Shown here piece by piece: positions 10,986-51,675 of a stretch of DNA of 64,000 nucleotides (its first letter is position 1; every line of letters starts with the position of its first letter). Location of the stretch: assembly GCA_038380435.1 (NCBI GenBank), contig JAWZYU010000034.1:23229404-23293403 (forward strand), read 5' to 3'. A program made the position numbers and the translations under genes. The notes under the pieces were generated by a model, which worked only from the letters and a program-made list of their open reading frames with translations, made no database searches and was not told the DNA's origin. Origin of the DNA: Ryuthela nishihirai. Taxonomy: Eukaryota > Arthropoda > Arachnida > Araneae > Heptathelidae.

Positions 10986-10989
10986 TTTT

Positions 10990-11960: not shown

Positions 11961-12269
11961 TTCTGGCCAAACCCGCATCGTCCCCCCTCCCTTCAATCTG
12001 TTTCAGGCTATCGCAGGAAATAGGGTATGGAAACAATTGTTTTGGAAACAATGTTTTGGGAAAAAATTCTTCATCCTCTTATCGAAACTTATTAATCCAT
12101 CTCCCCTTTATGATAGATCAGCTATTTTGTAAATAAACAAAGTACCCATCGGAAGAAGACAAACCATTTTGAAATTTCCCTTTGTGCCCCTAAACCCCTA
12201 AGTGTTGTGCCTCTCTTATTAGAATCTCCATCTGGTTGAAGGATGAAGCCATCAGATATTTGTGTTCAG

Positions 12270-13690: not shown

Positions 13691-13717
13691 AATATTTTGG
13701 GTATATTAAATTATAAG

Positions 13718-14735: not shown

Positions 14736-17700
14736 CATCATCATCATCATCCTCAAGCAGCCATGGGCTACGGAGGTCCAACCAGACCGCGCAATTTAAT
14801 TCTCCAAGCATATCTGTCCTGAGCTACATCTGCTGCATCCGGCCACTGTACACCAATTCTAACAAGGTCCTGTTTGACATTGTCTGCCCACCGCATCCTA
14901 GGTCTCCCCCTCCTTCTGAGGCCTCCAGGCACACTGTTCATAACCCTATTCGCCAATCTATAATTATCCATACGGGCAACATGGCCAAACTAGCGGAGTC
15001 TCTCTCTGCACAATATGCTGCTTAAAGGAGGTTGCAGACTCCTTTGCCTAACCTCATCATTAGTTACAAAGTTAAACCACCTAATACCCAAGATACTGCG
15101 TAAGCATCTAGAATCAAAAGCATCTAGTTTCCTGTTATCTTGCTTACACAGCGTCCAAGTTTCACTACCATAACTAACACTAGAAAGAACCAAACTATTA
15201 TACAGTCTAATTTTAGTCTTTAGGTGTATACGCCTATTTCTCCACACTCTCCATAGATTCTTAAAAGTCCCGGCAGCAATACCTATTCGTCTGTTAATCT
15301 CATGCCGCACATCACCAGTATCAGTTACGCAGCTCCCAAGGTAATTAAACTGTGACACCTGCTCAAGACTGCAACCATTCAGATTAACTGAATCACAACC
15401 TGCCTGACCAATTTTCATCACTTTAGTTTTCTCTCTGTTTATAACCAAACCTACTGTACTACCAGTCTCATCAACAGTTCGAATGAAAGAGTTCACTCAT
15501 CAACATCATTTGCCAAAAGAGCTAAATCATCAGCATAATCTAAATCAGAGATTTTCGTATCTCCAGCCAATTTAAGGCCAAAAGCTTTCCCTTGAAGTGA
15601 ATTTCGCATAACATAATCAACAATTAAACTAAAGAGAAAAGGAGACAAAATGCACCCTTGTCGAACACCAGAAGTAATGCTAAACCAATTGCTACAAGCC
15701 TTACCAACTCTCACACATGACTCAGTGTTATTATAGAGAGCTTTCATTATGTTAACTAACTTGTCTGGTATACCATATGATTTCACAATCAACCACAAAT
15801 TATGACGATCAACAGAGTCGAAAGCCTTTTTGAAATCAACAAAGCTAGCAACCAAAGGTTTCTGAAACTCTAAACATTTCTCAAGAATCTGCCTAAGTGA
15901 AAATATCTGATCTACACATCCCCTATCATTTCTGAATCCACATTGCTCATCACGCAACTGCCTGTCAACCAGATTCTTAATTCTATTAAGCACAATCATG
16001 GAAAGAACTTTACCTGGAACGGAGAGTAGGCTGATACCCCTATAGTTATCACAAGAACTGCGATCACCTTTTTTGAAAATAGGGATAATAATAGCTCTGG
16101 TAAAAGTCTTTAGGTCCTTGCCTTTATCATAAAAGTTATTCAAAATTTCAGTCATCCAAATGGTAACGGAAACATTCCCAGCTCTAAGCATTTCCGTAGT
16201 AATTTCATCTACCCCTGGGGATTTATGAAGTTTAAGTTTAGAAAGAGCCAAACTAACTTCAGATTGTGTTATAGGGCTAACATTAAAGCCAACAATGCAT
16301 CTATCATCATTGCAAACAATGGGAGTAGAACTGACCACATTGTTTAGAACATAACTGAAATGCTCAGCCCACCTAGCCATGACAGAATCCTCACCTTCTA
16401 TAACCTTGCCTTGTTTATCCTTCAATCCCTGTATACCTGTTCGTTTTCTACCACACAAAACATTAACTATCTGGTACAGCTCTCTGCTGTTGTGCTGTCT
16501 AACTGCTTCCTCAGCTTTGTCAGCAAGGCCATCAAGCCAAAGATTCTTATCAGTAGCTAACTGATTCTTTACACGTTTATTAAGTTCTTTGTAATGCTTT
16601 CTATTAGGACTAGTAGGGTACTGATTAAGGACATTCCTGCAGTTCCTTCTTTCTGAAATAAGCTCAAGTGCCTTATCACTTAAATAATTCTGCCTCCTCT
16701 GCTCCTTTTTCCCTAAAAGAGTACTGTTAGTTTCCAAAAAAGACTGTTTAAAATGGCCCCATTCTTCCTCAACTTCAGTATTAAGCAAACCATGACTGTC
16801 ATAATGACTAAGTAACCTATCATGGTAAGCTTTAGCTATAACTGGGTCTTTCAGAGCTTCAGTAGTAAAGGTAAATTTTTTAACCCTAGCACAACACTTT
16901 TTAAGTTTAAGTTGCAAGACACTTTTAACAAGGTAATGGTCAGATCCAATTTCAGCTCCCCTATATGCCGTGGTATTTCTAACAGAAGTAGCCCATTTGC
17001 TGTTAATTAATATATAATCAATCATATTCTTATGCAGCCCATCAGGTAAAACCCATGTGTATTTATGTATGTCGCGGTGTTTGTAATATGTGTTAGTTAT
17101 TCTGAAACCATTTAGTTTACTTACCTGTAGGAGACGTTGCCCATTGCCATTGCAGCTACCAATACCAAAAGGGCCTATTACTCCTCCCCAAAGGTCAGAG
17201 TCGGTACCAACTTTGGCATTGAAGTCACCAAGAACAAGGGTAATATCTCCTTTCTTGACAGAATTCAAAATATCATGAAGTTGTCTGTAAAACCTATCCT
17301 TCTCATCCTCATCAGAATCCTCAGTGGGGGCATAACAGCAGATAACATTCAAGTCTTTAATGCTTGCCTGAAATTTTGCTGTAAGAAACCTTTCATTAAT
17401 GCACTCATATCCTAGAAGAGCATCACTAGCATGTCTGCTGGCAGCAGACCCACACCTTGGTGATGCTTTCCATCCTCCCTCCCTGTAAAGAGAAATTTAA
17501 AGTTATTTTTAAGTATCTCACCTTTACCTGTCCATCTGGTCTCTTGCAAGCCTAGAATATCTAGGTTATAGCGCTGGAATTCCTGCATGAGGACATCAAG
17601 AGAATAATCTCTATGTAATGTCCTCACGTTCCTGCAGAGAGAAAATGATTAGTAGGATTTTTAAAGAAATTCGGTTTATTGAGATTGGTAGGGCCAACAA

Positions 17701-18386
17701 TATCAAACAGCCCCCTGATCGCAGGCATGGGGCAAAGACCTATTCCTCCTCCGCTAAAGGCTGAAGTCACCGATGCTGGTAGGAACTTCAGGCACCACCT
17801 TTTCAAGTGGACTTTTTCAAGAACCATATGGCCTGCCTGAGACACATTACTCCAGTTTAGGCTTGACGATGCCCAACTACCTAAGTAAGGTTCAGGTACC
17901 TGCGATGGCCTCTGATTAGGATTATCCACCAGCTGATATAAGGTATCCCATGCCTCTGTTCACTTAGGGCTGGCAACCCAGAAGCAAACAGAAAACACAG
18001 CGGCAGACTCTCCCTCAACAGAGGCCCACCAGTGCAGCAAGTCCAGGATCCATAATCAAGCTCAAATCCATAAACAAGTCCAGTCTAATAGGTATAAATG
18101 GTCAGCACCAGGACCCTGTGAAGTTGACCACTCCTCAGCAGGGTTGAAAAAAAAAAAAGAAAAAAGTGGCCATAGATGACCAGATCAGTAGGCCATACTG
18201 AACTGGCAGCCATCCCCTTCCGTTCCCTTCCAAAAGAGAATATCTCTTTTGAAAGGTACTAACGGCCTGCACCACGAGAAGGCGGGGTCGGACATTAGGT
18301 GCTAGACCTGGCCGGTTCTGTGCATCATCACTGGGGATTGGTACACAGCTCTCCTTCCAGTTTACGCCTAGCTACCATTTTCAAGC
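14736..18386 (-). mobile_element. full-length RTE-like non-LTR retrotransposon
   Basis: A 3.65-kb LINE on the minus strand. The 3' end is the cat-repeat tail at 14736-14751; the 5' end is at about 18386. An 11-bp direct repeat, CAAATTATATT, flanks it at 14725-14735 and 18387-18397, as expected for target-primed reverse transcription. It has a 5' leader, a short N-terminal segment, endonuclease and reverse transcriptase domains, and a conserved C-terminal region. It appears to be a complete insertion with a few disabling mutations. Relatives in this window: 40559-44068, 52084-53076 and 9957-10063. Confidence 0.92.
14768..17929 (-). pseudogene. endonuclease-reverse transcriptase of the RTE-like LINE
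   Basis: Read 18 to 14.7 kb. An N-terminal unknown segment (17929-17624) ends in SAGT just before the endonuclease start. The APE-type endonuclease has LGLQETRW near 17530 and VICCYAPTED, LVLGDFNAKVG and GSDHYLV between 17350 and 16900. The reverse transcriptase (about 16240-15500) has IIIPIFKKGDRSSCDNYRG, FVDFKKAFDSVDR, GVRQGCILSPFLF and the catalytic YADD. The C-terminal part includes FNYLGS, YGSETWTL, a CRERLR segment and RRRGRPRMRW. Four pieces are open: 17412-17627, 15493-17352 (619 residues), 14990-15496 and 14768-14971. Breaks occur near 17630, 17400, 15495 and 14980. The product would nick DNA and copy its own RNA; the breaks make it inactive. Confidence 0.92.
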
Positions 18387-22970: not shown

Positions 22971-23935
22971 TGTCGTGCCCCCAGGAATTGATCCTGCGGA
23001 CACGACTTGGGCTATAAAAGGTCCTTGAATATGTTTTTCTCGAAGTGTGAACAAAGACCTGGTTAGTCATCTCAGTTCCAAGAACTTGCCAGTTCAACTG
23101 GATGAAACCAGTGTCCGGCATCGCCCCAGGAGCCAAGAACTTCCGGACCCAGAGTTCGGACCCGCCACCAAAGAGGCCGAGTAGGCGGAGCGATGCACCC
23201 GACGTCCAATGGCAAGCGCCCGCGTCAGCTTACCACGCTGACCACCGCTAGAGGTCGCGGCGGGAAGAAGCGGCAATTCTGAACTGCGGCAGAGAAGAGC
23301 CAGGTTGTCTCCATGTTTCGACAGAGTGAAGACGTCTTCTTTTGGCCGGGAATCGGCAAGGCCTCGTGTAACTAGTTTAGAAGTTTTCGAACTGTTTTAA
23401 TCTTTTTGTCTAGTTATACCTAGGCGATGGGCCTCCAAAGGACAGTGCTGATCTTCGCAACAAAGGCTCCTGCAGCGACCACCTCATCCAACAGGTAGAG
23501 TCACCCTCATTCATAAATCTGGTATCTTTTCCACAAATTTCTATTGTCTGCTTCCGCCACTGTGCTCTGGGGAACAGCCCCCATACTAGGACTTTAGAGC
23601 TGGTAGCTCACATTAAATGAACAGACTTTTGCCTAAACGAGTTGGCGTCTAATTGTAAAGGCGGTCATCGCCTGAGAACGAGAAAGTTGGCTGTATTCCC
23701 CGAAGGGAACTCCTGATACGGGAGAGTAGTTTTAGCAATGTACTGTAAACAAATTATGTTTAAATGGTAATATCTGACTCCTCTCCGTCTTTTAAGATTG
23801 AGTCACGTATCGGGTTATGGCAGAGAAGGTCCCCTTCTCGATAGTCTGCACAAGTCACAGCACGGCCAAAATCGACGGGAGGGAGTCAGAAATTTAATGG
23901 CGGACCGCCCTCATACGAAAGGGGGGTTCACGTCA
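22971..23935 (+). repeat. 5' LTR
   Basis: 965 bp, TG..CA ends, about 99% identical to the 3' LTR by eye. Most differences are C/T or G/A transitions. A TATA box lies at 23013-23020. Confidence 0.95.
23013..23020 (+). promoter_or_regulatory. TATA box in 5' LTR
   Basis: tataaaag, 42 bp inside the LTR, in the sequence ggctataaaaggtcc; identical in the 3' LTR near 28762. Likely the promoter of the retroelement RNA. Confidence 0.65.
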
Positions 23936-23936
23936 A

Positions 23937-23965
23937 ATTGTTGCCGTGACCCAGGATTTTCGAAC
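23937..23965 (+). promoter_or_regulatory. primer-binding site, tRNA-His-like
   Basis: Directly after the LTR, ttgttgccgtgacccagg followed by a cgaacc-ending stretch resembles the complement of a tRNA-His 3' end (acceptor strand GTCACGGCA, then CCA). The expected TGG is altered to TTG here. A second similar site beginning tggtgacgtgacc follows near 24005 after another cgtcaaatt, as if this stretch was duplicated. Confidence 0.5.
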
Positions 23966-25430
23966 CTGAGTGTTATTGCGGTTAGAAATAAAAACACGTC
24001 AAATTGGTGACGTGACCACGGATTAGCTTCAAACTTTTTTCTGTAACCCAGTATGTTCGAACCTGAGTGTTAACGCGGCTAGAAAAAGAGTATAATTAGA
24101 GATGGCAAAATTATTGTGTTGAAATGTGGCAGTAGCAGAATGTAAAGAAAATTAGGAATGTTAAATATTGTGATTTTAGTGACTTTAGTGATTTAAATTG
24201 TGATTTAATATTGTGATGTTAGTGAGAATTGTATACTATGTTTTGAGCGAGGAATTTCAGGAGCATCTGTTAAAACAAGTGTTATATTGAAGTATAGAAA
24301 GTGATTTGAATTAAATGTTTAGTGCTAAGAAATAAGTATAAGACTATAGCTAGGCCCAGGTGTAGAGTGTATGAAGGAAGTATTAGAGATTTCGACTAGG
24401 GACTATATCATGATATTTTAGATAGGAGTGATTTTGTGTTTTACTTTTAAGTTGCATTTCTGCGTGCGCCTCCATTGCACCTAGGAGGCACCAAAAAACC
24501 CAACACACAGCACAACACGCAGCACACAGGGAATGGCGGGACAAATAAGTGGAAACACCAAAAGGTTTAATTAGGATATAGCGTGTAAGACGTTGATAAT
24601 TGTGCTGATAAACTAATTTGAGAATTGCTCAATTTTATATGTGTATTGCATTGTTAAGATTTTTAGTTAAAAATTAATGGAGTTAGTAAGATATGTGTGA
24701 ATTAAGTAATCGTGTGAGAGAGATAATTATTGATGCGTGATATAGATAGAAATTGTTTTAAAGAGATTTTCGAGGTTGCTTAACAGTTTGTGGTTTGTTA
24801 CTGTTATTAGAGATAAGGCTTCAGTATATTTTTGAAAAGTTTTCATTGTATAGAAATGCTTAAGATTATCGTAAGAGTTGTTAAATTCGGAGATTGTGGT
24901 TTAATGCAGTTTAAAAACGTGTAATTTGTTTTGAAAAGTTTTCTGATGAGTTAATCGGTTAAACGATGTCGAGAATTAGTGCTGAGAGTATATAATAGTG
25001 GAATCCTTTGTAGTGAAGTTTTGCACGAAAGTGATCACTGCCCAGTAGCTCAATTGGATAGAGCGGCTGACCCACAATCAGCAGGTGTAGAGTGCGGATC
25101 CCACCTGGACATATCAGCTTTCTTAATTCACTACACTGCTCGTGTGTCATAGTTTCTTTTGAGGAAGGAGTATCGCAGATAGTGATAGAGTTCAGTGATT
25201 TTTGTGTGTGTATTTAAAGTTAAGAATTTTAAGTTAAGTTAGATAGCCAGTTAATAGGTTTTGTGAAGTGTTGGTTGAAAGGTTAAGACATTGAAAAAAA
25301 TTATGGTAGTAAGGTGTTATTGATTAAGAAGTATATTGCAGTCGGATTGAGTGATAATAGATAAAAGTGTAATCGCATAGATTAGTTGGTATATAATTAT
25401 ATATCTGTTATTAGAGTTTAAAGAAAATTA
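23966..25430 (+). other. long retroelement leader
   Basis: About 1.4 kb between primer-binding site and gag-like start with no coding potential. It contains the tRNA-like segment at 25038-25112. Confidence 0.6.
25038..25112 (+). tRNA. tRNA-like sequence (pseudo-tRNA)
   Basis: Starts gcccagtagctcaattggat, a good box A region. It has a five-base anticodon stem (gctga/tcagc) around loop cccacaa, which would give anticodon CAC (Val) but has C instead of U at position 33. Box B (gtgcggatcccac) is poor and the acceptor stem is imperfect. Probably a captured or decayed tRNA inside the retroelement leader, not a working gene. Confidence 0.4.
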
Positions 25431-25432
25431 AA

Positions 25433-25927
25433 ATGGCACATGGAATATTGTATACGTCTGCACACGGCACTAAGTATCCACAGCATAAGAACCGTAGTAA
25501 CTCATTTGGCAGGAATGCTAGGCATCATAAGAAGGAATGTTTCGAGTGTGGAAATTTTGGCCATTTTGCCCGAGACTGCACCAAGAAGAGGAATTTAAAT
25601 GTTAAGCATTACCAATACAGTGGTCCCGATAGTTACATAGAGCATTGCCCCCCACACTCTGCCTACTCAGGACAAAAACAGGCTTTTAATAATCCAGCAA
25701 AAATTTCGGAATCAAAAACTTTGGCATTTTGCCCTTCAGAACATTTAGACTGCTACAACCTCGAGAAACGCCAGCAGGAAGAAAGCCCCTCGGTCAGTTT
25801 AATTAAGCAAACCCCGTTGTATCAAATTTTGGAAGCTGAGCTAGGACCACCCCCCATGCATTGGAGTAAAGTAGAAGACATCGACGTCCTTCGAATGGTG
25901 GCAACCGTTTTTACCCCTCTGGATTAG
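25433..25927 (+). CDS. gag-like zinc-knuckle protein of the LTR element
   Basis: 164 residues. A single CCHC knuckle, CFECGNFGHFARDC, lies at about residues 37-50 in a basic context (KK before, TKKRN after), the nucleic-acid-binding signature of retroelement Gag proteins. The N terminus is short and basic, so most of a usual capsid domain is absent; the C-terminal two thirds are unremarkable and proline-rich in places. ATG at 25433 has an A-rich context (aaaatgg). The next frame starts 15 bp after the stop in a different register, which would fit frameshifting or a separate start. Likely role: RNA packaging for the element. Confidence 0.8.
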   Translation: MAHGILYTSAHGTKYPQHKNRSNSFGRNARHHKKECFECGNFGHFARDCTKKRNLNVKHYQYSGPDSYIEHCPPHSAYSGQKQAFNNPAKISESKTLAFCPSEHLDCYNLEKRQQEESPSVSLIKQTPLYQILEAELGPPPMHWSKVEDIDVLRMVATVFTPLD

Positions 25928-25941
25928 AGCAAGATGATGAA

Positions 25942-27639
25942 GTGCGCGATTTAGTGGAAATTGTGTTCGACATTAAAGGTCTCAGGGATGTAATTTTTGA
26001 TGTTTTAAAGAAGCAAAGTTTAGCTCAGGAGAGGGAGGCGACACAGGAAAAATCGAGAAGTGAGGATGGGAATCGAACCCCCGTAGAGGAACCGTCAGAG
26101 AGTGGAGGGAAGTCACTTATAATTACAACTTGCAGTAATGAAGAGGATATAAATAGGGATAGAAAGAGTTTCGAGGCATTAGATAATACTATGGAGGTAG
26201 ATAGCCAAGTGGACAAGGAACAGAATAATGGGAAGATAGAAGAGATAGTTGAAAAGCAAGTGAATATATTGGATGCGAAACCGTTTCTAGAATTAGAAGA
26301 GTTAGTGCCCCCCCGAAGCTGTAACTGAAGCAGCAGAATTTGTCGTCTCCGACTGTAGCCTGAGACACAAGTTGATACAGAGGAAGAGATTCCAACAGAA
26401 GTAGGAGTTTTGGCGCCCCCTCCCGAAGCCGGAAATGAAATCTCAGAGTTTGTCGCATATGACTGTAGCCCTCTAATCCGAACGGATACAGATGAAGCTA
26501 ACCCGGACATACATACAGCAGACAGCAGCACGGAAGAAAATATACTGATTATTTGCACGCCCCTCCCAAGTAACTTGGAAGAAAAGCCCCCCGAAGTGTC
26601 ACTCAACGCTCTGCAGCCAGACGTAGAATGCACAACCTCCCTTTCATGTTTTCCTGCTGCGGCGGAAATCGCCACCTGCTGTACGGACAGATTGGCGGAA
26701 GAATCAGCACCACCAAAGGCTCGATTTGTCATGCTAGAAACCGGTAGCCACATCGAGAGAGATCAGCCCCTACCTCGGCCAGCCCTAACTAACCCTCCTA
26801 GCCGCCGATTTGCAGAGGAAAATAGCCAAGATATGTTGATAAGTAGCCCACAGGTCCCAGAGAAGAGGAAGCGTAGTTTGAATGCGCATAAGTTTGAAGT
26901 AAAGAAAAGTGTAACGTATGTGTGTAAGATGGGACCAGAGAAACGATCATTTAGCAAGGGTTTACCAGTAAGAAGAGTTAGGAAGAATTTTAGAAGTGGA
27001 TTGAAATTTAGTAGAGTAACTAAATGTAATTTTTGTAAGGAAATGAGCGCCGTTAATTCGCACAGAATGAGTGTCAGGGTTAGAGAGGCCAGGTATATCC
27101 AAGTATTGAGATCAAGTAAATTAGTTAAGCAATGGAAAACTAGAAGAAAAAAGGGAGAACTAAATATTAGTTGTGTGGGTGGGAAAGCACTATCACAAAG
27201 TAGCAACTTATCCCCTCACAGAGACAGCGAAAGTATTCGAGTATCCGCAGAATTCGCCTTGGGGACTAGGATTTCGACCAGCCAGCCGCCCCGAAACACG
27301 TGTAGGGATCGTCCATCACCGCCAGTTGCTGTTGCCACCGAAGATCAAACTTATCGGCGCCGCAGCGGCTCATCAACGGCAGCGCGCCTGCAGCCGATCA
27401 GAAGAGAGCAGAAAGCAAAACAGGTTCTTCCCCACCCCCGCGCACGCTACTCAGGAGAGACGAAGGACACGTGCAGCTATGACGCAACAATCAGCGCGAA
27501 GCGAATCTTCGGCGCTCGCATCTCCGTGGTGACGTCAGCTGCTCATTCTTGGAATGGAGTCGGAGTCATAGAACACTCACGCAAGAAATCACGAGAATTT
27601 CTCCCGTGCGCGGTGGGCGAGCCGGCGCGGAGATGGTGA
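25942..27639 (+). pseudogene. large unrecognised second ORF of the LTR element, frame-broken
   Basis: Two open pieces in the same register, 25942-26328 and 26410-27639 (409 residues), are separated by two stops. A run of seven cytosines at 26311-26317 is the likely site of a slippage frameshift, because the next register encodes a peptide (EFVVSDCS) that parallels EFVAYDCS at about 26450 in the second piece. The protein thus carries a duplicated PPEA..EF..DCS segment. The first part is acidic (many E, D); the later part is basic, with a cysteine pair (KCNFCKEM near 27020) and a proline/arginine-rich end. No protease, RT, RNase H or integrase motif was found. Function unknown. It may be accessory cargo or a strongly diverged gag extension. 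Confidence 0.6.
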
Positions 27640-27789
27640 CGCTTTGGGAAACCGCATCTCCGTGGTGACGTCAGCTGTTCATTCTTGGAATGGAGTCGGA
27701 GTCATAGAACACTCACGCAAGAAATCACGAGAATTTCTCCCGTGCGCGGTGGGCGAGCCGGCGCGGAGATGGTGACGCTTTGGGAAACC
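27519..27789 (+). repeat. 135-bp tandem duplication
   Basis: The block beginning gcatctccgtggtgacgtca at 27519 is repeated from 27654 with one visible substitution (ctgctc/ctgttc). The first copy includes the end of the second ORF; the second lies just beyond its stop. Confidence 0.9.
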
Positions 27790-28704
27790 TCTGGCGGGAA
27801 GCAGGTTCTACGCACCCCCCCCCCACACACACACACGTTCAATCAATCAATCAGCCAGAAGGAACAAAGCAGCTATTTGAAACAGTGTAGACCGAGTGCA
27901 AAGCCCACCATTTGAATAATAGATTTGAGATTCGATAAATAATTATAAATGAGTTTGCTATTGGAGATTTGAGTTTTTGAGAAGTAATGTTTGCCACTAT
28001 TAAATGAATTGATGGAGAAATAATTTTCGATGATCATTGTCAGAGTAACTTGGAAATAATTATGAATGATTTTGTTATTAGAGGTTTGAGTTTTCGAGAA
28101 GTAATTTTGTCACGATTAAATGAATTAATGGAGAGATAATTAGATGATCATTGTCAGAGTAACTATTAGATGATTTTGTGATTATAAGAATAAAAGTTAG
28201 ATGATTTTGTTGGTATAAAGTGAGTTTTACTGAGAAAGGATTTTCTTTTGTTTTATTGTTGGAATTGTAACTAACTTCAGGAAGTTCTTGCTAATTAGAA
28301 GTGTAATCTGTACCATAAGATTTTTAAGTTCTATTTAACAGTGAGTCACGTGGCGGTAAGCACGAAGACAGACTGTGTGTTTGTAACTTAAGTACGTGGA
28401 AAACCAGATTGGTGACCCTTTTTCCCTGTTTTCTCTATTTCATGTGCTGTGGAGCCTCCTGCAGACCGACGCCCACCAGAGCGGTCCGGGCGGACCCCAA
28501 CTGTGAATCGCTGGACTTTCTTTTTGTGTGATCATGTGAACTGTGTGACCTTTTAGACTGTTTGGTGCGACAGCTGGACTCATGAAGAAAAAGCCAGATT
28601 CCAGATCATGATGGGTGACCCAGGAGATCATCTTCAACAATATAGTGCCATCTGCAGTGCGGTCAGCGACCTCTTCCCTGCCCCGCCTGTCCTCCTCTCT
28701 CCCT

Positions 28705-28719
28705 AAAGGGGGATAGGTG
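28705..28719 (+). promoter_or_regulatory. polypurine tract
   Basis: aaagggggataggtg immediately before the 3' LTR, the expected plus-strand primer position. Confidence 0.75.
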
Positions 28720-29685
28720 TGTCGTGCCCCCAGGAATTGATCCTGCGGACACGACTTGGGCTATAAAAGGTCCTTGAATATGTTTTTCTCGAAGTGTGAA
28801 CAAAGACCTGGTTAGTCATCTCAGTTCCAAGAACTTGCCAGTTCAACTGGATGAAACCAGTGTCCGGCATCGCCCCAGGAGCCAAGAACTTCCGGACCCA
28901 GAGTTCGGACCCGCCACCAAAGAGGCCGAGTAGGCGGAGTGATGCACCCGACGTCCAATGGCAAGCGCCCGCGTCAGCTTACCACGCTGACCATCGCTAG
29001 AGGTCGCGGCGGGAAGAAGCGGCAATTCTGAACTGCGGCAGAGAAGAGCCAGGTTGTCTCCATGTTTCGACAGAGTGAAGACGTCTTCTTTTGGCCGGGA
29101 ATCGGCAAGGCCTCGTGTAACTAGTTTAGAAGTTTTCGAACTGTTTTAATCTTTTTGTCTAGTTATACCTAGGCGATGGGCCTCCAAAGGACAGTGCTGA
29201 TCTTCGCAACGAAAGCTCCTGCAGCGACCACCTCATCCAACAGGTAGAGTCACCCTCATTCATAAATCTGGTATCTTTTCCACAAATTTCTATTGTCTGC
29301 TTCTGCCACTGTGCTCTGGGGAACAGCCCACATACTAGGACTTTAGAGCTGGTAGCTCACATTAAATGAACAGACTTTTGCCTAAATGAGTTGGCGTCTA
29401 ATTGTAAAGGCGGTCATCGCCTGAGAACGAGAAAGTTGGCTGTATTCCCCGAAGGGAACTCCTGATACGGGAGAGTAGTTTTAGCAATGTACTGTAAATA
29501 AATTATGTTTAAATGGTAATATCTGACTCCTCTCTGTCTTTTAAGATTGAGTCACGTATCGGGTTATTGCAGAGAAGGTCCCCTTCTCGATAGTCTGCAC
29601 AAGTCACAGCACGGCCAAAATCGACGGGAGGGAGTCAGAAATTTAATGGCGGACCGCCCTCATACGAAAGGGGGGGTTCACGTCA
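28720..29685 (+). repeat. 3' LTR
   Basis: 966 bp, matching the 5' LTR. It contains aataaatt near 29497 (aacaaatt in the 5' LTR), a possible polyadenylation signal. Confidence 0.95.
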
Positions 29686-29983
29686 ATAACACTCTTCCAT
29701 GCAGTGCTCAGATAGTGGAGGAATATCTTGAGAGTGAAGATATTCAGAGAATGGATTGGCCAGCATGGTCCTCAGACCAAAATCGCATTGAACATGCATG
29801 GGATGCTTTCGGAAGTTGCAAGTCATCAACATCCCTCCAAGAACCCTTCATGAGCTGAGAAATGCTCTTATAGGAGAGTGGGATTTGCTTTTCTCTCCAT
29901 TGCTGCATAACCTTATTCAAAGCGTGAGAGCTCACCGCGCAAGCTGCATTGCTATTACAGGTAATCATATTCCTTACTAAATA
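29686..29983 (+). pseudogene. Tc1-like transposase, 3' part
   Basis: Continues the gene interrupted at 22970, reading on from the target duplication: AQIVEEYLESEDIQRMDWPA, then a region like the family PDLNPIEHAWD (here SSDQNRIEHAWD), which holds the third catalytic acidic residue. A frame change near 29815 follows, then LQVINIPPRTLHELRNALI and a C terminus ending ITGNHIPY at about 29980. It gives the downstream boundary of the nest. Confidence 0.88.
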
Positions 29984-40555: not shown

Positions 40556-40578
40556 AAAAATCCTCATGCAGCCATAGG

Positions 40579-41024
40579 CTACAAAGGTCCAACCAGACTT
40601 TGTAATTTTCCTCTCCAGACATGTCTCTTTTGAGCTACTGCTGCTGCATTTGCCCACTCTAGGCCAATTCTAGCAAGGTCATGTTTGATATTGTCTGTCC
40701 ATTGCATCCTAGGTCTCCCACTTTTTCTGATACCGTTAGGTACAATGTTCTTAATCCTCTTTGCCAGTCTGCAGCTATGCATACGGACAACATGGCGAAA
40801 CCAACGCAGTCTCTCTCTGCACAATATGCTGCTCAAAAGAGGTTGATGACTCCTTCTAATCTCATCATTACATTCAGTATCTTGGGCATTAGGCGGTTAA
40901 AGTCAAACCGCCTAATGCCAAAGATACTGTGTAAGCATCTAGAATCAAAGGCATAAAGTTTCTTGTTATCCTGCTTACAAAGGGTCCATGTTTCGCTACC
41001 ATAACTAACCTTAGAAAGAACCAA
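40579..41024 (-). pseudogene. RTE-like C-terminal region
   Basis: Frames 41024-40833 (YGSETWTLCKQDN) and 40836-40579 (CRERLRWFRHVVRM, RKSGRPRMQWTDNIK) give the conserved C-terminal part of the LINE protein, with a frame break between them. Confidence 0.85.
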
Positions 41025-42995
41025 ACTATTCTACATCCTAATTTTAGCCTTTAGGTGTATACGCCTATTTCTCCACACTCTCCATAGATTCTTAAATGTC
41101 CCAGTGGCAAATCTCATGCCGCACTTCAACAGTTTCTGTTACATAGCTCCCAAGAAAATTAAATTGAGACACTTGCTCAAAAGTACAGCCATTCAAAACA
41201 ACTGAAGCACCAGTTGTCTGATCAATTTTCATCACTTTAATTTTTTTTCACAGTTTATCACCAAACCTACGAAAGTCATCTCATCAACATCAGTAACCAA
41301 CAGAGCCAAATCATCTGCATAATCTAAATCAGAAATTTTGAAATATCTAGATCATTTAAGGCCGAAATCTTTTCCTTGCAAATAATTTCGCGTTACATAA
41401 TCAATAACCAAAGAGAAAAGGATACAAAATGCACCCTTGTCTAACTCCACCAGCAATGCTAAACCAATCGCTGCAAGACGTACCAACTCTCACACACGAC
41501 TTAGTGTTATTAGAGAGAGCTCTCATTACATTAACTAACTTATCAGGATTACCTGTAACAGAAAGTAAACTAATTCCCCTATAATTATCATAAAAACTGC
41601 GATCACTTTTTTTAAAAATTGGAACAATGATAGCTCTAGTAAAATCCTAAGGAACAACACCTTTCTCATAAAAAATATTCAAAATTTCAGTCAGCCATGT
41701 GACAACACAAATGTTCTCAGCTCTAAGCATTTCGGTGGCGATTTCGTCCACCCCTGGGGATTTATGCAGTTTTAATTCAGAAATAGCCAATGCGACTTCG
41801 GAATGCGGTAAGGGCCATCATAAAAGCCAGTAATGCATCTATCCTCATTACAATGGGAGTAGAAATAATCGCATCAGTTAGAACATCTCTGAAACGCTCA
41901 GTCCACCTAGCCATCACAGAATCCTAACCTTCAACCACCTTGTCATATTTATCCCTCAATCCCTGTGCACTTGTCTGTTTTTTCCCACATAAAACATTAA
42001 CAATCTGGTACAACCCCCTGCTGTTGTGCTGTCTAACTACTTCCTCTGCTATGTCAGCCAAGCTATCAAGCCAAAGATTCTTATCAGCTGTTAACTGATT
42101 CTTTACATATATATTAAACTCGTTGTATATACATGGGTTTCACCTGATGGGTTGCACAGGAATATAATAGATTAAATTTTAATTAACAGCAAATGAGCTA
42201 GTTCAGTTAGGAATACCAGATCACATAGGGGAGCCAAAATTGTGTCTGACCATTAACTGGTCAAAAGTGTCTTGCAGCTGAAGCTCAAGAAATGTCATGC
42301 CTTCTGTTAGGGCTAGTAGGGTGTTGATTCATATTAATCCTGCACTTCCTTCTTTCAAAAATGATTTTCATAGCACCCAAATAATTTTATTTCCTTTTAC
42401 CCAAAAGATTGCTGTTGATTTCAAGAAAAGCCTGTTTAAACTGATCCCATACTTTCTCAACTACAGCAGTAAGCAAACCACGATTGTCATAATGACTAAG
42501 TAGCCTATCATGGTATGCTTTGGCTATATCGGGATCTTTCAGACCTTCAGTGTTGAAGGTAATTTTCTTTACCTTAGCACATTTCTTATGCTTCTGCTGC
42601 AAGACACTTTTGACCAGATAATGGCCATACCCAATTTCGGCCCCCTTTTATTATCTGGTATTCCTAACTGAACTAGCCCATTTGCTGTTAATTGGAATAT
42701 AATCTATCATATTCTTGTGCAACCCATCAGGTGAAACCCATGTATATTTATAAATTTCTCGGTGTTTGTAGTATGTGTTAGTTATTTGTAAACCCTTAAG
42801 TTTACTTACTTGTAGGAGACGTTCCCCATTGTGATTGGAACCACCAATGCCAAAGGGACTTAAAACTCCTGCTCAAAAGTCATAGTCAGTACCAACTTTA
42901 GCACTAAATTCCACCTAGCACAAGAGAAATATCTCTTCTTCACAGAATTCAAAATATCCCGAAGCTGGCTGTAAAACGTATCCTTTTCGTTCTCA

Positions 42996-43619
42996 TCAGT
43001 CCTCTGTGGGGGCATAACAACAGATGACATTTAAGTTTTTAATATTTGTTGCAAATTTTACTGTAAGAAATCTTTCATTAATGCAGTCATATCCTATAAG
43101 AGCATCACTGACGTGTATGCTGAGAAGCAAACCTACACCTTGGAGATGCTTTCCATCCTCCCTCCCTGAAAAGAGAAATTTAAAGTTATTTTTAAGTATC
43201 TCACTTTTACCTGTCCATCTGGTTTCTTGCAAGCCTAGAATATCTAGGTTACAACTCGGGAATACCCACGTGAGGACATCAAGAGAATAATCTCTAGATA
43301 ATGTGCTCAAGTTCCACGTTCCTGCAGATAGAAAATGATTAGTAGGATTTTTAAAAAAACTATGTTTATTGAGATAGGTAGGGCCAACAATATCAAACAG
43401 CCCCCTGATCGCAGGCATGGGGCAAAGACCTGTTCCTCCTCCGCTAAAGGATGAAGTCACCGATGCTGGTAGGAATTTCAGGCACCACCTTTTCAAGTGG
43501 ACTTTCTCAAGAGCCATATGGCCTGCCTGTGACACATTACTCCAGTTTAGGCTTGACGATGCCCAACTAGCTAAGTAATGCTCAGATACCTGCGATGGCC
43601 TCTGATTAGGATTATCCAC
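42996..43619 (-). pseudogene. RTE-like N-terminal and endonuclease segment, open
   Basis: 207 open residues beginning MDNPNQRPSQ. The first ~105 residues match the N-terminal unknown segment of the first copy; the frame then continues without interruption through SAGTW into the endonuclease (LGLQETRWTGK, VICCYAPTED). This shows that the N-terminal segment and endonuclease belong to one protein and that the first copy carries a break at that junction. Confidence 0.85.
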
Positions 43620-44439
43620 CAGCTGATATAAGGTATCCCATGCCTCTGTTCACTTAGGGCTGGCAACCCAGAAGCAAACAGAAAACACAGCGGCAGATTC
43701 TCCCTCAACAGAGGCCCACCAGTGCAGCAAGTCCAGGATCCATAATCAAGCTCAAATCCATAAAGAAGTCCAGTCTAGTAGGTATAAATGGTCAGCACCA
43801 GGACCCTGTGAAGTTGACCACTCCTCAGCAGGGTTGAAAAAAAAAAGAAAAAAGTGGCCATAGATGACCAGATCAGTAGGCCATACTGAACTGGCAGCCC
43901 TCCCCTTCCGTTCCCTTCCAAAAGAGAATATCTGTTTTGAACGGTACTAATGGCCTGCACGACGAGAAGGCGGGGTCGGACATTAGGTGCTAGACATGGC
44001 CGGTTCTGTGCATCATCACTGGGGATTGGTACACAGCTCTCCTTCCAGTTTATGCCTAGCTACCATTTACAGATCCTCTTGAAATAGTGAACGCATATTA
44101 TTGGAAATTAAGATTTAAATAGTTTACTTATGTTCCTAAAATTATTTTCAGTTATATATTTTCATAAAAATATTATTCAACCCTTCCAGTGTCCACGTCA
44201 TCTGCATACGTTCAGAGAATCTAAATTGAGAGGCCAAGGATGTGTGTATCCGATTTTCAGTACAACAAAAAAAAAAATCAATTTTTTTAAAAATAAAAAT
44301 TTCCGTTGTAATTTATATATATATATTTTAAAAATATATAATTCAGGTTTCAAAAATAATATTGGTTTTTAGTTTGATGCATATTTTATTAAACTAGAGT
44401 AAAAATAATTTATAAAGCCATCTGATTGCCATTTCTTAG

Positions 44440-46598: not shown

Positions 46599-46604
46599 TA
46601 ACTA
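46599..46604. repeat. 6-bp target site duplication, left
   Basis: TAACTA directly before the left TIR; the same six bases follow the right TIR at 51670-51675. Confidence 0.85.
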
Positions 46605-47077
46605 AGTAGTATAGTCACACCCGGGCAGCCCCCATAGTGCTTTCCCCTATGACGTCACAGGCCACGCCCGCTTCCGCCCCTATGACGTAACATGACGTAA
46701 TCATTACGTAACATGCCACGCCCTCTTTATTAATAATTCCTCCCCCTTGTTAAAAACCCTTCCCCTCAGTGGCGCCATCTTGTGACAATGAAGAGTACTA
46801 ATTCCCCAAAAAACCCTATTTTAATTCTAATTCTTCGATTTTTGATTTCTCCCTTTATAAAAAATTCCTCCCCCTTTTGAAAAAAAACCCTGGCGCCATC
46901 TGGTGCCTGTGAGGAACACTAATTCCCTCCCCCCGAAAAAAACCCTTATTCTAAATTCTTCGATTTTTGATTTTCCCCTATTAAAAACCCCTTATTAAAA
47001 CCCCCCTGGCGCCATCTGTTGACAATGAAGAGTACTATTTTCGGAAAAAAACCCTTATTTTAACTCTAATTTCCGAC
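46605..47077 (+). repeat. left terminal inverted repeat
   Basis: Pairs with 51192-51669. Outer ~130 bp: several TATGACGTAA/TGACGTCA sites. Inner part: three successive modules of roughly 110 bp, each with ggcgccatct followed by an aagagtacta-like stretch and ttcttcgatttttgattt. About nine in ten bases match the other end by eye. Confidence 0.93.
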
Positions 47078-47193
47078 CGGGACTACCCCATAGTGTTGTG
47101 CAGGTGTTGAAACGTAAACGGCAGAGACGTCTGTAGACCCTGCCTGTGTGAAGACAAGTGTTTTTGTCTCCAGACACTCGAACTAGTGCAACC

Positions 47194-47751
47194 ATGCAAA
47201 ACATCTGTATGGTTCTAGATCTCGACGGTTTCCGTGTAAATGGGCGTTTCCTAGTAAGTGAACTCGGATATGCAACTCTGAATGGGAAATGTGGTGTCTA
47301 TCGCTTCAATCTTCGACATCACCAACCTTTGTCGGTAAAAGACAGAAGGACAGTCAACTACATATCTAAATATGTGCTAGGCCTACCCTTTCATCCTCTG
47401 CTTTGTGAAAAGGTGTGGTCATTAGATCACGTTCCTAACATTGTGAAATATGCTTACAAACTTGCACGTACTGAAGAAGCTACTGTGGTGGGTTACAAAG
47501 GAGGTACTGTGGAAAGAATTCTCTTGGAACAATTAAATCTTCCCAGTGTTAATCTCGAACTTTACGGCTGCCCCAAATATTGTGATCTCCCAAAAGATTC
47601 CGAGTTTGAGTGCGGATATCACACTGGAGAGGATGTCCACTGCTCTTTAGCCGAAACAGCTGCTTTCTTTGGATGGATCGACTGTCGTCTCGTCGAGAAC
47701 ATGTCCCAACAAACACCCTCTTATCAGATCATTCCTGATTGGTCGTCCTAG
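47194..47751 (+). CDS. possible RNase H-fold/DEDDh-like protein of the Polinton-like element
   Basis: An intact 185-residue frame; the ATG at 47194 is in good context (gcaaccatgc), while an in-frame extension upstream has no ATG. The N terminus reads MVLDLDGFRVNGRFL, with a DxD pair on a hydrophobic strand, as in exonuclease motif I. VVGYKGGTVERILLEQL (about residues 97-113) resembles motif II in position. HCSLAETAAFFGW near residues 149-161 resembles the closing HxxxxD/E motif of DEDDh nucleases with E in place of D. These are pattern resemblances, not a database match. Eight cysteines in the second half (for example GCPKYCDL) are unexplained. It lies 53 bp before the PC4-like gene on the same strand, suggesting joint transcription. 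Possible role: nucleic-acid processing for the element. Confidence 0.65.
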   Translation: MQNICMVLDLDGFRVNGRFLVSELGYATLNGKCGVYRFNLRHHQPLSVKDRRTVNYISKYVLGLPFHPLLCEKVWSLDHVPNIVKYAYKLARTEEATVVGYKGGTVERILLEQLNLPSVNLELYGCPKYCDLPKDSEFECGYHTGEDVHCSLAETAAFFGWIDCRLVENMSQQTPSYQIIPDWSS

Positions 47752-47804
47752 GTGGTGCGGCTCTCTAGTTAAATAGGGAGCAAGTGTCATGTGCCACATT
47801 GTTC

Positions 47805-48600
47805 ATGATGCAGTCTATCAATCCAGATGCGTGGTGTCTCGGTGAAGATGTTTACATTGTACCTACACTGTTCAAAAATAAGTTTTCTGTGCACGTACGC
47901 CACTACAAGAAATTGGAAAATGGCGAACTCATCTACCCTACACCTGCAGGGGTTACCCTCTGTAGGTGAATGGGAGGCTTTGTGTGCTGCGGTTCCCCAC
48001 ATAGAGGACCAAGAGAAAAACGGTCCCGATCAACAGACATCGTACGTGATGCATGGTTTACGTGCCTACATGTATCGCACTGCAGGTGGTGAACGCTGTG
48101 TCGACTTCATCAAAGAATCGACCGACCAAAGAACTCTACAGTTCCGTGTGGTGAGACGGTGTATAACACTGAATGCTTCACAGTGGTTCACACTGGCTCT
48201 GCACGTAGACGAAGTGACACACATTGTGCATAGTGTGTGCGGGACCCCCAAAGATCACCATCTCCGTAGAGCTATTATGGAACATTCAGAATCTGTTCAC
48301 CCTTTCCTGCTGGGTCCTGTTTTCGACGGCCCCGATTGTGTTTACCTGCTGCTGGTGAATAGTTTTCAGCAAGAACTTATGCGCGTGATACCGTTAGATG
48401 GACTACAACCCGAAGAAAAAATACCGACCATCGTAGGGTGGTCTGGTGACTTGGACATTAACGCCTTGGCACAGGTATTTGTGGATATGGCCTGGAAACG
48501 AGGTCTGTTGAATTTTGTAGATTCTGGATTTGTGTGTGGTCTAAAATATAATGCTATTGTCGACGAGGCAAAAAATGAAATATACAAATTAAATAAATAA
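47805..48600 (+). pseudogene. protein with two PC4-like domains, one frame break
   Basis: The first frame from ATG 47805 encodes GEDVYIVPTLFKNKFSVHVR and HYKKLENGELIYPTPAGVTL. This matches the beta-strand pattern of the PC4/p15 single-stranded DNA-binding domain. It stops at 47969. The domain's closing helix (VGEWEALCAAVPHI) lies in the next register, open to 48600, so a small indel near 47960 splits one domain. A second PC4-like pattern follows: ERCVDFIKEST, RCITLNASQWFTLALHVDEV (about 48090-48230). The remaining ~110 residues (DCVYLLLVN, VGWSGDLDINALAQVF, GLKYNAIVDEAKNE) are unrecognised. The stop codon overlaps an aataaa signal (aataaataa). PC4 proteins bind single-stranded DNA and act in transcription or replication; a duplicated domain in a mobile element suggests an analogous role. 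The break could also be a sequencing error or recoding. Confidence 0.7.
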
Positions 48601-48779
48601 TTGTAACCTTATATAATGTGTCTGTCTTTTCATCCTATGTCATTTTAGTCCTGGTATGGATAGGAGAAAGAAGGTGTTAGCTAGTGTGGGTAGTGTAATT
48701 GTGACAGTGTTAACGATAGCTGTACTGAAGTTATAATGCTGTATTACGCAAATATACAATTTTAAAGTATTTCATTTTC

Positions 48780-49030
48780 TCAGATACACACTTTTAAAGT
48801 ATTACATTTTTTAAAGTATTACATTTTCCCAGATACACACTTTTAAAGTATTACATTTTTTAAAGTATTACATTTCCCCAGACACACACTTTTAAAGTAT
48901 TATATTTTCTCAGATACACACTTTTAAAGTATTACATTTTTTAAAGTATTACATTTTAAAAGTATTACATTTTTTAAAGTATTACATTTCCCCAGACACA
49001 CAATTTTAAAGTATTACATTTTCTAATATT
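48780..49030. repeat. tttaaagtattacatttt tandem repeat
   Basis: About nine copies of a short unit (ttttaaagtattacattttt with cccagacacacac or tcagatacacac spacers), just beyond the 3' end of the PC4-like gene. No coding potential. Confidence 0.9.
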
Positions 49031-49129
49031 CTTCTTTATACATAGTTTGCCCAATAAAAATCATATATTTATTCACACCACATATATGGAAATTTTGCCT
49101 ACAGTACAGGTCTGAGAAAAAATGTTCCA

Positions 49130-49970
49130 CGAGAGTAAACACTCGATTGTGGAAAAATTTAACCGTTGTAATAAAAGACAACATGCTTCACACTTTTGCT
49201 AGCTTGAGCAAAAATCTAAGTAACTAAAGTTTGAAAATTAACATTTAGAATAAAATGACTTTACAGGTTAGAAAACTCTATGCACGTTAATAAATGGTTG
49301 AGTGCCTTAAGGGCTGCACAGTGTTAAATAAAATTTTATTTACCTAGCAGTAGTTGAAGGGATTGTATCAGCAGCCGCTGCTGTGGCAGTGGCGATGCGC
49401 TTGCGATGGGTCAGGGACAGTTTCAGCGTCCTCTGCTGCAATTCCTGCCTTGCATGGTGTTGGAGGCAAACGCGTTTCACAGCCCGGTCCTCGGGCTGCG
49501 AAGGTCTTTTGGCTGCAGCGTCCAGATCATGAACCATCCTTAAAGGACCTTCGAAGCAATCCCTTTCCGTGGGGACCCTAAATAGATAGATAATTCCGTC
49601 TCAGAATATGCAGTACATTTACATGTTTTTCATCTTAGAACATAAAAGGTAACATGGTTCACACTTTACAGGTATGAGCAAAAAATCTAAGTAACTATTT
49701 AACTAAAGTTTAAAAATTAATATTTAGAATAAAATGACTTTACTAGGTATAAAACTCTATGTTGATCAGTTGTGTTGTAATAAAAGACAGCATGCTTCAC
49801 ACTTTGTTAGCCTGAGCAAAAAATCTAATATTCAACTAAAGTTTGAAAATTAACATTTAGAATAAAAATGACTTTACTAGGTATAAACCTCTATGTACGT
49901 TAGTAAATGGTTGAGTGTCTTAAGGACAACATAGCATTAAATAAAGTTTTATTTACGCAGCAGTAGTTGA
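49130..49970. repeat. duplicated ~200-bp segments around minus-strand 3' ends
   Basis: Segments at about 49150-49350 and 49770-49965 share ttcacactttgctagc-like, attaacatttagaataaaat, gactttac, gttaataaatggttgagtg and a polyadenylation region (on the minus strand taaataaaa overlapping the stop codon). A third partial copy begins near 49640. Confidence 0.88.
49340..49577 (-). CDS. candidate 3'-terminal exon a of a minus-strand gene
   Basis: Minus strand: a splice-acceptor-like attatctatctatttag precedes an open frame from 49577 that runs through CFEGPLRMVHDLDAAAKRPS and a basic, alanine/threonine-rich tail to a stop that overlaps taaataaaa. About 78 residues; low complexity at the end. No family recognised. 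It may be joined to the pieces upstream at 50193-50471 by splicing, or it may be one of two alternative last exons. Confidence 0.4.
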
Positions 49971-50012
49971 TGATCCAGCTGCAGGAACGTTGGAGACTTG
50001 CTCAGTAGACAT
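49953..50012 (-). CDS. candidate 3'-terminal piece b of a minus-strand gene
   Basis: A short frame (MSTEQVSNVPAAGSSTTAA) ends in the same way as exon a, with taaataaaa overlapping the stop and a shared ACTACTGC before it. It seems to be the homologous last segment in the second duplicate. Upstream reading frame continues to about 50050. Start and joining are uncertain. Confidence 0.3.
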   Translation of the reverse strand: MSTEQVSNVPAAGSSTTAA

Positions 50013-50192
50013 CTCGGGATGGATAGCAGGTATTGACAACTCAGTAGAACAGTTGAAAACGGAATGTCCGTGGGCTGACTTGACACCGTATATATACACC
50101 GTTCAATCTTCTGATACATGTCACTCTCTGGCCACTCCACGTTACTTTGACCTTGTTCTGGCACATCACCTACCCTTAGAGAACAACAACGT

Positions 50193-50471
50193 CTATTTTG
50201 AAACCTTATGAGTATCAACAATCACACTGAGTGCTGGACACTCCAGCTCCCGTCGTGTTTTGAAACTTGCTAGCTGACCGGTAAGAGGCTTAATAATGAG
50301 TGTCGACACGTAGTGCATGATGAAACCCAGCTCCACTCTCTGTTTGATTGTGCCACGTACGGATTCAGGAATGTCTATAACGAGTTTGAAATTTTTCCAT
50401 TGTCGGATCGGTTCTTGTTCAAGGATTGCATCAACAAGGAGTTGGCAAAATGAAGCGGGGGGGGGGGGCAT
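50193..50471 (-). CDS. unrecognised minus-strand ORF of the Polinton-like element
   Basis: From ATG at 50471 it encodes 92 residues: MPPPPASFCQLLVDAI, EQEPIRQWKNFKLVID, then a hydrophobic GFIMHYVSTLIIKPLTG and a C-terminal VIVDTHKVSK. The first codons lie on a homopolymer of eleven or twelve cytosines, prone to length error, so the true start may be different. No family recognised. It converges on the plus-strand genes, giving the element an ambisense layout. Confidence 0.45.
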   Translation of the reverse strand: MPPPPASFCQLLVDAILEQEPIRQWKNFKLVIDIPESVRGTIKQRVELGFIMHYVSTLIIKPLTGQLASFKTRRELECPALSVIVDTHKVSK

Positions 50472-50499
50472 TGAGGCAATGCGTTCGAATCTCACTGCT

Positions 50500-51190
50500 G
50501 GGAGAAGGATTTTTTTTTTCAGTTAAACACATCTACAGAAAACTGATTTATTTCGACCGTACGATGATTTTTAATAAAGGTAAGGGAATTTTGATGAGTG
50601 TTTAATTACTAGGGAGTTGATTAGTTTACTTGGAAAAATGAATACCGAAGGAGAATAGCATGGAATTTTAATTATAAGGGAATCGTTTAGCCGTCTTGGT
50701 AAAATGAATAGCAAAGGATTTTTAATAGAAACGGTTTTTAATAGAAAGGGTTTTAATTACTAAGGAATAAATACAACTTTGTGAGTTGATTTTCTGTTAA
50801 GTTTTACAATTGCAACCTGCATTAGACATTCTGAGTGTCGCCATTCAAAAAGAGCTGAACTGACTTGTAAAATTTCAGATGAATACCAAGGGAATTTTTA
50901 AATACAGGAGATGTACTAAAATACACATTGGACGCAGCCGGTTAAATTTTTAAGGGAAGAGAATTTTGGTGTTTAATTACTAAGGACCTGATTTTCTGTG
51001 AGACGCTGCTTTTACAATTGTATCATCCCTTTCTATGCAATTATTCCGAGTCTTGCATCAGCCAATCCTCAGGAAGGAGGGGGCTTAAATTATAGGTAGG
51101 GTTTAAAAGGTCAACCAGGGGATGGTCTGCAAGAGGAGGGAGGGCTTAAAATATAGGTAAACCATTGGGGAGTCTGAAATAAAGAAAAAC
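50500..51190. other. noncoding part of the element before the right TIR
   Basis: Loose internal repeats (ttaattactaaggga, gattttctgt near 50610-51000) and a purine-rich stretch. Likely the promoter side of the minus-strand gene; no specific motif seen. Confidence 0.4.
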
Positions 51191-51191
51191 C

Positions 51192-51669
51192 GGAAATTGG
51201 AGTTAAAATAAGGTTTTTTTTTCCGAAAATAGTACTCTTCATTTTCAACAGATGGCGCCATGGTGTTTTTTAATAAGGGGGAAGGAATTTTTAATAGGGG
51301 GAAATCAAAAATCGAAGAATTAGAATAAGGTATTTTTTTTGGGGGGGGGAATTAGTGTTCCTCAGAGGCACCAGATGGCTCCAGGGGGTTTTCATAAGGG
51401 GGAGGAATTTTTCATAAAGGGGGAAATCAAAAATCGAAGAATTAGAATTAAAATAGGGTTTTCTGAGGAATTAGTACTCTTCATTGTCAACAGATGGCGC
51501 CACTGAGGGGGAAAGGGTTTTTTAATAAGGGGGAGGAATTATTAATAAAGAGGCGTGGCATGTTACGTAATGATTACGCCATGTTACGTCATAGTGGAAG
51601 TGGGCATGGCCTGTGACGTCACAGGGGGGAAAGCACTGTGGAGGACTGCCCGAGTGTGACTATACTACT
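51192..51669 (-). repeat. right terminal inverted repeat
   Basis: Reverse complement of the left TIR with the same three ggcgccatct modules and outer TGACGTCA sites; ends ctatactact. Confidence 0.93.
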
Positions 51670-51675
51670 TAACTA
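51670..51675. repeat. 6-bp target site duplication, right
   Basis: TAACTA, identical to 46599-46604. Confidence 0.85.

Follow-up and report, generated by a model that had tools for sequence, protein, structure and literature searches.

The stretch analysed here (the window) comprises 64,000 nucleotides from the spider Ryuthela nishihirai and corresponds to C34:23229404-23293403 of a 3.11 Gb host assembly; C labels denote sequences of the assembly and L labels the stretches fetched from it. It contains a 5,065-bp element at 46605-51669, delimited by direct reading of the sequence, which is very probably a defective, non-autonomous derivative of a large resident Polinton (Maverick) family, with a left end (terminal inverted repeat (TIR), ORF1 and ORF2) fused to a right end (a region of small minus-strand genes and the other TIR). 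As a lone deletion derivative of a resident Polinton, the element is a real finding yet close to ordinary. The part most worth specialist checking is a set of sister copies in the same genome that have two like ends, 6-bp target-site duplications (TSDs) and, in two cases, a shared pivot. The features of the window element are as follows:

46599-46604, no strand: left copy of the TSD, TAACTA, read from the sequence
46605-47076, plus strand: left TIR with an (AGT)2 tip and internal sub-repeats of ~120 bp containing TGGCGCCATCT
47073-47077, no strand: first deletion junction, just inside the left TIR, where ~0.4-0.5 kb present in other copies is gone
47194-47751, plus strand: ORF1, an open frame of 185 amino acids (aa), from frames, profile and database searches
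47769-47969, plus strand: front piece of ORF2 with a PC4-like region, the frame being interrupted here
47809-48600, plus strand: rear piece of ORF2, in a different frame, from the open reading frames
48724-48726, no strand: main deletion junction, a 3-bp microhomology (ACT) common to both matches
48752-49026, no strand: AT-rich tandem repeat, with similar sequence near the right end of a longer copy on C26
49340-49600, minus strand: arginine-rich frame of 86 codons; right ends of other copies hold protein-level relatives
49949-50522, minus strand: overlapping pair of decayed frames; relatives occur in the right ends of other copies
51190-51669, minus strand: right TIR with an (ACT)2 tip, from the sequence, an inverted-repeat search and alignment
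51670-51675, no strand: right copy of the TSD, TAACTA, read from the sequence

The initial annotation of this locus had described inverted ends of about 475 bp and a 6-bp TAACTA duplication, and both are borne out to the base by the sequence and by global alignment. The two 6-bp copies are identical and bracket the element exactly, and a direct repeat of this length immediately outside symmetric ends is not expected by chance. The tips read AGTAGTATAG from 46605 and CTATACTACT up to 51669 (in a longer reading, AGTAGTATAGTCACAC... on the left and ...GTGTGACTATACTACT on the right), with AGTAGT and ACTACT at the outermost bases. The alignment of the two ends that had been proposed as a check fixed the TIRs at 472 and 480 bp, with 434 matches, 30 mismatches and 24 gap columns, and the inverted-repeat search recovered the same arms in pieces. 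Because each end is found again in other copies within the genome, an assembly artefact is unlikely for the window element. The coding pieces had been placed on both strands, converging on the middle, and the six frames agree: those at 47152-47751, 47769-47969 and 47809-48600 on the plus strand and those at 49340-49600, 49949-50221 and 50193-50522 on the minus strand all run inwards.

PMC8097293 describes vertebrate Mavericks with (AGT)2//(ACT)2 ends and perfect 6-bp duplications, and with a mean length of ~17 kb that varies by about 10%; PMC6431247 attributes to Polintons a protein-primed DNA polymerase (PolB) and a retroviral-like integrase. The window element resembles these elements in its end motif, its 6-bp duplication and its long TIRs, and longer copies in this genome carry matches to the Pfam families rve and DNA_pol_B_2. 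It differs from them in its length of 5.07 kb against a mean of ~17 kb (PMC8097293) and in having no integrase or polymerase frame among the six frames scanned, none of which matched any Pfam family at E values up to 1. Measured against an autonomous Polinton/Maverick, it thus has the 6-bp TSD and the long (AGT)2 TIRs, lacks the PolB and rve genes, and at 5,065 bp falls short of the usual 15-20 kb.

A six-frame search of the genome with ORF1 (47194-47748) gave 2,697 candidates, the best 150 of which were scored, all with E < 1e-100 and identities of 86-100%. Twenty stretches of 10 kb were fetched around 20 of these 150 matches, and element positions ~473-2122 (47077-48726 of the window) were found in every one of them at 89.7-91.8%, the conserved block being slightly shorter or offset in L009 (from 475), L015 (from 508) and L016 (to 2115). 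The gene order of the family, read from at most eight of the 20 stretches, begins with ORF1, ORF2, a short membrane-like frame (ORF3), an integrase, a ~346-aa frame and a ~135-aa frame; it continues with frames of 444 aa, 151 aa, 214 aa (P-loop) and ~128-142 aa, and PolB lies on the opposite strand. Some of these frames are broken in L009 and L014. In L027/L030 the Pfam matches to rve (E 5.1e-15) and DNA_pol_B_2 (E 3e-23) both exceed the curated cut-off. Matches below it were PC4 in ORF2 of L027 (E 2.3e-5, 24.3 bits against a cut-off of 25) and in ORF3 (0.0061), DUF5901 in a 348-aa frame (0.0051), and Pox_A32 (0.0024) and AAA_14 (0.0054) in the P-loop frame. No Pfam match was obtained for the frames of 444 aa and 151 aa, which are named capsid-like and protease-like, respectively, by their order and resemblance. 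Four of five parent frames had no match in PHROGs, while the PolB piece matched a DNA polymerase.

The longer copy at C26:37363085-37379476 (16,392 bp by its coordinates) has PolB (split), integrase, TIRs and a 6-bp duplication, CTGGTT, on either side, as expected of a Polinton. Its tips are AGTAGTTTGTTCACACC and GGTGTGAATAAACTACT, and its TIRs of ~555 bp align with 525 matches, 18 mismatches and 25 gaps (92.4% by blastn). PolB occupies two frames in both of the copies that were followed into it, the C26 copy (L030) and a copy on C19 (L029). Bearing on recent activity, the left modules of stretches L017-L022 differ by a mean of 0.76% and those of L023-L028 by 1.22%; the window copy is 7.5-9.6% distant from all 20. 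The TIRs of the C26 copy differ at 18 mismatches and 25 gaps though the mean of its left-module group is 1.2%, so TIR divergence was not used as a clock. Copies that are 97-98% alike elsewhere (L017/L018 and L023/L028) diverge at the extreme tip of the left TIR, as if tips had been swapped between them. In the stretch after the left half of the C19 copy, a 1,254-codon frame (L029 795-4556) looks like a later non-LTR insertion.

Set against these longer copies, the window element is made up of the left ~2.1 kb and the right ~2.9 kb of the family, joined at the 3-bp microhomology. Up to position 2122 it tracks the left side (L027rc to 3028), and from 2120 it tracks the right side, starting at L030rc 3208, which is 11 bases beyond the PolB frame (1014-3197). 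The loss amounts to about 10.2 kb of the parent (positions ~2616-12793); it begins at ORF3 and stops a short way upstream of the PolB frame. At the first junction, the element from position 473 onwards corresponds to L016rc, L027rc and L026 from 1381 onwards, while the best TIR match ends at ~796-836; the stretch lost there holds a small acidic/proline-rich frame in most copies with listed frames, although in L015 this frame is not open. The right part matches the right ends of other copies, the C26 copy included, piecewise, at best at 81-84% over >1.2 kb.

Both ends are therefore colinear with a resident, enzyme-bearing family, as expected of a non-autonomous derivative. The suggestion of a Polinton-derived element made in the initial annotation stands, given that the genome also has a 16.4-kb copy that carries rve and DNA_pol_B_2 and has both ends in common with the element; the unusual gene set claimed for it does not, since ORF1, ORF2 and the minus-strand frames correspond to outer genes in the parent Polinton. 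Full-length relatives of another superfamily would have spoken against the assignment, and the relatives found are Polintons with rve and DNA_pol_B_2. The small size of 5 kb, the TIRs and the two convergent gene blocks had prompted the idea of a small virus. A parvovirus-, bidnavirus- or other small-virus-like origin is ruled out by the colinearity of both halves with a 16-kb Polinton, as is a separate, novel gene set. Non-autonomous internal-deletion derivatives of DNA transposons keep the ends and lose the enzyme genes. The window element does the same, and its ancestry can be traced to a resident family; it differs from such derivatives in that it is not amplified as far as searched and in that it retains outer genes of the parent.

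A 151-bp query across the main junction (48640-48790) gave 1,623 candidates, of which the 40 best were scored: only the window matched over the full length, and the other 39 all stop at base 87, the junction. With the junction present in one of 40 scored candidates, the deletion may have occurred before or after insertion. Loss of the middle would be due to end joining or a template jump, and would date from extrachromosomal protein-primed copying prior to insertion or from repair after it. That a normal Polinton of ~16 kb inserted here and later lost its middle to host repair has about an even chance of being correct. It accounts for the single occurrence of the junction among the candidates scored, for a separate second small deletion alongside an interrupted ORF2, and for the 3-bp microhomology, which is typical of end joining; no counter-evidence specific to the window copy was met. 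A trans-mobilised mini-element, inserted as a 5-kb molecule that arose from a replication jump, is a serious if tentative alternative; a trans-mobilised derivative had been suggested in the initial annotation. Both ends, the (AGT)2 tips and a perfect 6-bp duplication are retained, ORF1 is open with a ratio of nonsynonymous to synonymous polymorphism (pN/pS) of 0.12-0.26, and other rearranged forms of the family bear perfect duplications. However, no sibling junction appeared among the 40 candidates scored, and the conservation of ORF1 may mirror the parent lineage only.

Some of those other rearranged forms came to light through the spacing of ORF1. Among its 150 scored matches, five neighbouring pairs lie less than 30 kb apart, four of them convergent (2.9-8.7 kb), one on the same strand (18 kb) and none divergent. 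All four convergent pairs are elements with two left ends, each with a perfect 6-bp duplication and with the first 22 bases identical at both ends. The copy at C87:1174854-1184984 (10,131 bp, TSD TACCAG) follows the normal order up to 8370 and then returns from 3326, its arms being identical at 914/914 and 1629/1630 positions. At C31:14484762-14496386 (11,625 bp, TSD CATGTT) the outer arms align with 1,895 matches, 7 mismatches and 27 gaps and the inner arms with 3,848, 7 and 4, respectively. The copy at C22:6302509-6313941 (11,433 bp, TSD GACGTA) was read except for ~1.7 kb before its right end. Finally, C531:8609-13430 (4,822 bp, TSD GGCCTA) turns at 3740 and resumes at 2668, 11 unmatched bases separating the two, and its arms agree at 96.7% (outer) and 99.1% (inner).

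Copies with two right ends also occur. Four divergent pairs were chosen by eye among the right-part matches listed (of 196); two have perfect 6-bp duplications, one has a duplication at 5/6 and one has none that is readable. The first, C21:55519387-55523592 (4,206 bp, TSD GACGTT), has arms with 1,863 matches, 38 mismatches and 51 gaps, and the second, C15:16518158-16527949 (9,792 bp, TSD TCTGCA), has the same first 21 bases at both ends. The pair at C4:114435463-114451540 (16,078 bp) is flanked by AAAATA/AAAACA, the 5/6 case, and in another C4 pair, at ~3.2 Mb, the right end is truncated within the TIR (L046 ~215), leaving the duplication unreadable. Perfect 6-bp duplications thus flank 6/8 like-ended pairs overall. 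The C87, C31 and C21 copies were read along both arms and the loop, C22 along most of its length and C531 in parts; for C15 and both C4 pairs the ends were read and the remainder was taken from opposite-strand matches. The stretches holding the like-ended copies of C87, C31, C22, C531, C21, C15 and C4 are L017, L025, L026, L039-L044 and L048-L052. Two further divergent right-end pairs, at C19 ~209729-210650 (~210 kb) and C1 ~93326233-93327141 (~93.327 Mb), are possible additional right-right copies.

The C31 and C22 palindromes pivot at the same 8-bp inverted repeat, found in the ordinary copy L028 as GATGCCAC at 6056 and GTGGCATC at 6142, and the loop lies in opposite orientation in the two. 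A pivot-spanning query matched in full at C31 and C22 only; in the remaining 38 of the 40 candidates scored (of 1,188) its two halves adjoin in ordinary order. The arms differ from one another at one site within C22 and at seven within C31, while C22 and C31 differ from each other at 43-47 sites and each is closer to L028 (26-30). No allele private to both palindromes was found in a comparison with six other sequences. Given this, and the greater closeness of each palindrome to L028, two independent fold-backs at one inverted repeat are the simplest account, and judging from these sequence comparisons the two probably arose independently. The alternative is a single palindrome that was later homogenised through exchange with ordinary copies; support at the deciding nodes of the trees is weak (57-61 in IQ-TREE; 0.23 and 0.57 in FastTree).

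The likeliest origin of the left-left copies is fold-back (snap-back) priming or template switching during replication by PolB. The related phi29 polymerase performs strand displacement according to PMC11071308, and we assume the same here for the Polinton PolB. A displaced strand could fold on a short inverted repeat and be extended into a left-left or right-right molecule, whereas a jump between short repeats would yield an internal deletion; the rearranged molecules would then be inserted by enzymes supplied in trans. Deletion and snap-back forms both retain two TIRs and hence should be integrase substrates in trans. In the sister copies one end is present twice, in inverted orientation, around a loop, and in six of the eight pairs a perfect TSD brackets the whole as one insertion unit. 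The left-left duplications, the identical tips and the shared pivot fit a snap-back replication model.

The main rival to snap-back replication is gene conversion in place between the inverted ends of an already inserted element, which we consider unlikely overall, although it has real points in its favour. Within one copy the two TIRs are similar enough for conversion to begin (92.4% by blastn in C26), the C21 and C4 right-right copies keep two different tips, and the outer arms of C531 match at just 96.7%. Against it stand the first 22 bases, which are the same at both ends in 4/4 left-left copies, the C87 arms with 914/914 and 1629/1630 identical positions, and the one 8-bp inverted-repeat pivot that C22 and C31 share. 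Artefacts of assembly or of fold-back reads, a known fault of long-read data, are a far more improbable source of the like-ended copies, since in 6/6 copies tested the host sequence on one side of the arms is not an inverted copy of that on the other (the only matches being 13 bases in C21 and 24 bases at 83% in C31, with 63 bases of right flank tested in C22) and the outer 6-mers are direct, not inverted, repeats.

A broader proposal would join the two kinds of copy: Polintons here replicate extrachromosomally as linear protein-primed DNA and spawn internal-deletion and snap-back defectives, which the integrase inserts, leaving a datable fossil record of replication errors. We regard this as evenly balanced, and several points weigh against it or limit the main reading above. 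Nothing links the window deletion to replication; a lone copy that keeps its ends would be just as expected had the deletion followed insertion, and deletion in place is at least as likely as a replication origin for that copy. The outermost tips are unlike in two of three right-right copies (C21 and C4), an outcome more readily explained by conversion in place than by snap-back ahead of insertion. PolB is split in both the C26 and C19 copies, so no copy has been shown to be wholly intact. Finally, the genome searches covered the best-scored candidates only (150 of 2,697, then 40 of 2,764, 40 of 1,623 and 40 of 1,188).

We know of no direct view of a Polinton replication intermediate, the mode of copying being deduced from the genes and from adenovirus. 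Adenovirus incomplete particles contain DNA with duplicated left ends, and RNA viruses produce copy-back defective genomes. The copies described here resemble these in their left-left palindromes with an asymmetric loop and in their deletion forms, and adenovirus likewise has linear, protein-primed replication; in contrast, the sister copies sit in host chromosomes with 6-bp duplications and are known here from assembly sequence alone. No earlier report of like-ended Polinton/Maverick copies was found among the papers listed from a literature search, which also listed no fitting paper on adenovirus duplicated ends. If the replication proposal is true, like-ended copies with 6-bp duplications are the footprint of free linear two-left or two-right molecules that inserted. 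They provide a cheap general test, as left-left and right-right Polintons can be sought in any assembly. Together with deleted forms, they also frame compact 'odd' Polintons such as the window element without invoking a new gene set.

Of the genes retained in the window element, ORF1 has a pN/pS of 0.12-0.26 against 20 other copies (first 166 codons), indicating past selection on its protein among copies of the family. In the protein database a profile of ORF1 finds 97 relatives, and not one of them has a precomputed domain. DEDDh exonucleases carry DxE, D and HxxxxD motifs on an RNase H fold. Conserved residues of ORF1 in alignments A1/A2 are D9-x-[DE], E107, E122 and H149-x4-E154, and from this motif spacing alone ORF1 is suspected to be a DEDDh-like exonuclease, as a lead only. 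Searches of ORF1 against PDB and Pfam gave weak, unrelated matches only (e.g., Lipl32, best E 0.0022, in 19/66 family members), and among viral contigs three pattern matches yielded no confirmed relative. ORF2 is uninterrupted in several other copies, as a single frame of 275-277 codons; a search with the rear piece found nothing among 341 candidates. The 86-codon arginine-rich frame is 65.7% alike over 99 positions to a relative in L035. This minus-strand frame is preceded by an acceptor-like module (49578-49641), which also precedes PolB in the C26 copy (L030). A module common to PolB and small minus-strand frames suggests shared splicing signals, with one leader joined to several exons.

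The window also holds other repeats. Direct repeats of 967 bp, 98.9% identical, bound 22971-29686, which looks like a recent long terminal repeat (LTR) element. Between them lie a frame of 426 codons that has no Pfam match and one with a zinc knuckle (zf-CCHC E 4.9e-6) at 25415-25924; neither of these two scanned frames (from those of >=130 codons) matches reverse transcriptase. Window positions 1-5505 contain tandem arrays at 1-1161 and 2965-5046 with a period of roughly 53 bp (from match offsets), and 1-1623 is duplicated directly at 3896-5505 (95%). A non-LTR element at 14738-18383 has a reverse transcriptase frame on the minus strand (15499-17496, RVT_1 E 3.5e-27), and a relative of it, 77-87% alike, lies at 40560-44071. 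The same non-LTR element is adjoined by a plus-strand frame at 13682-14626 with Baculo_FP- and PHD-like matches.

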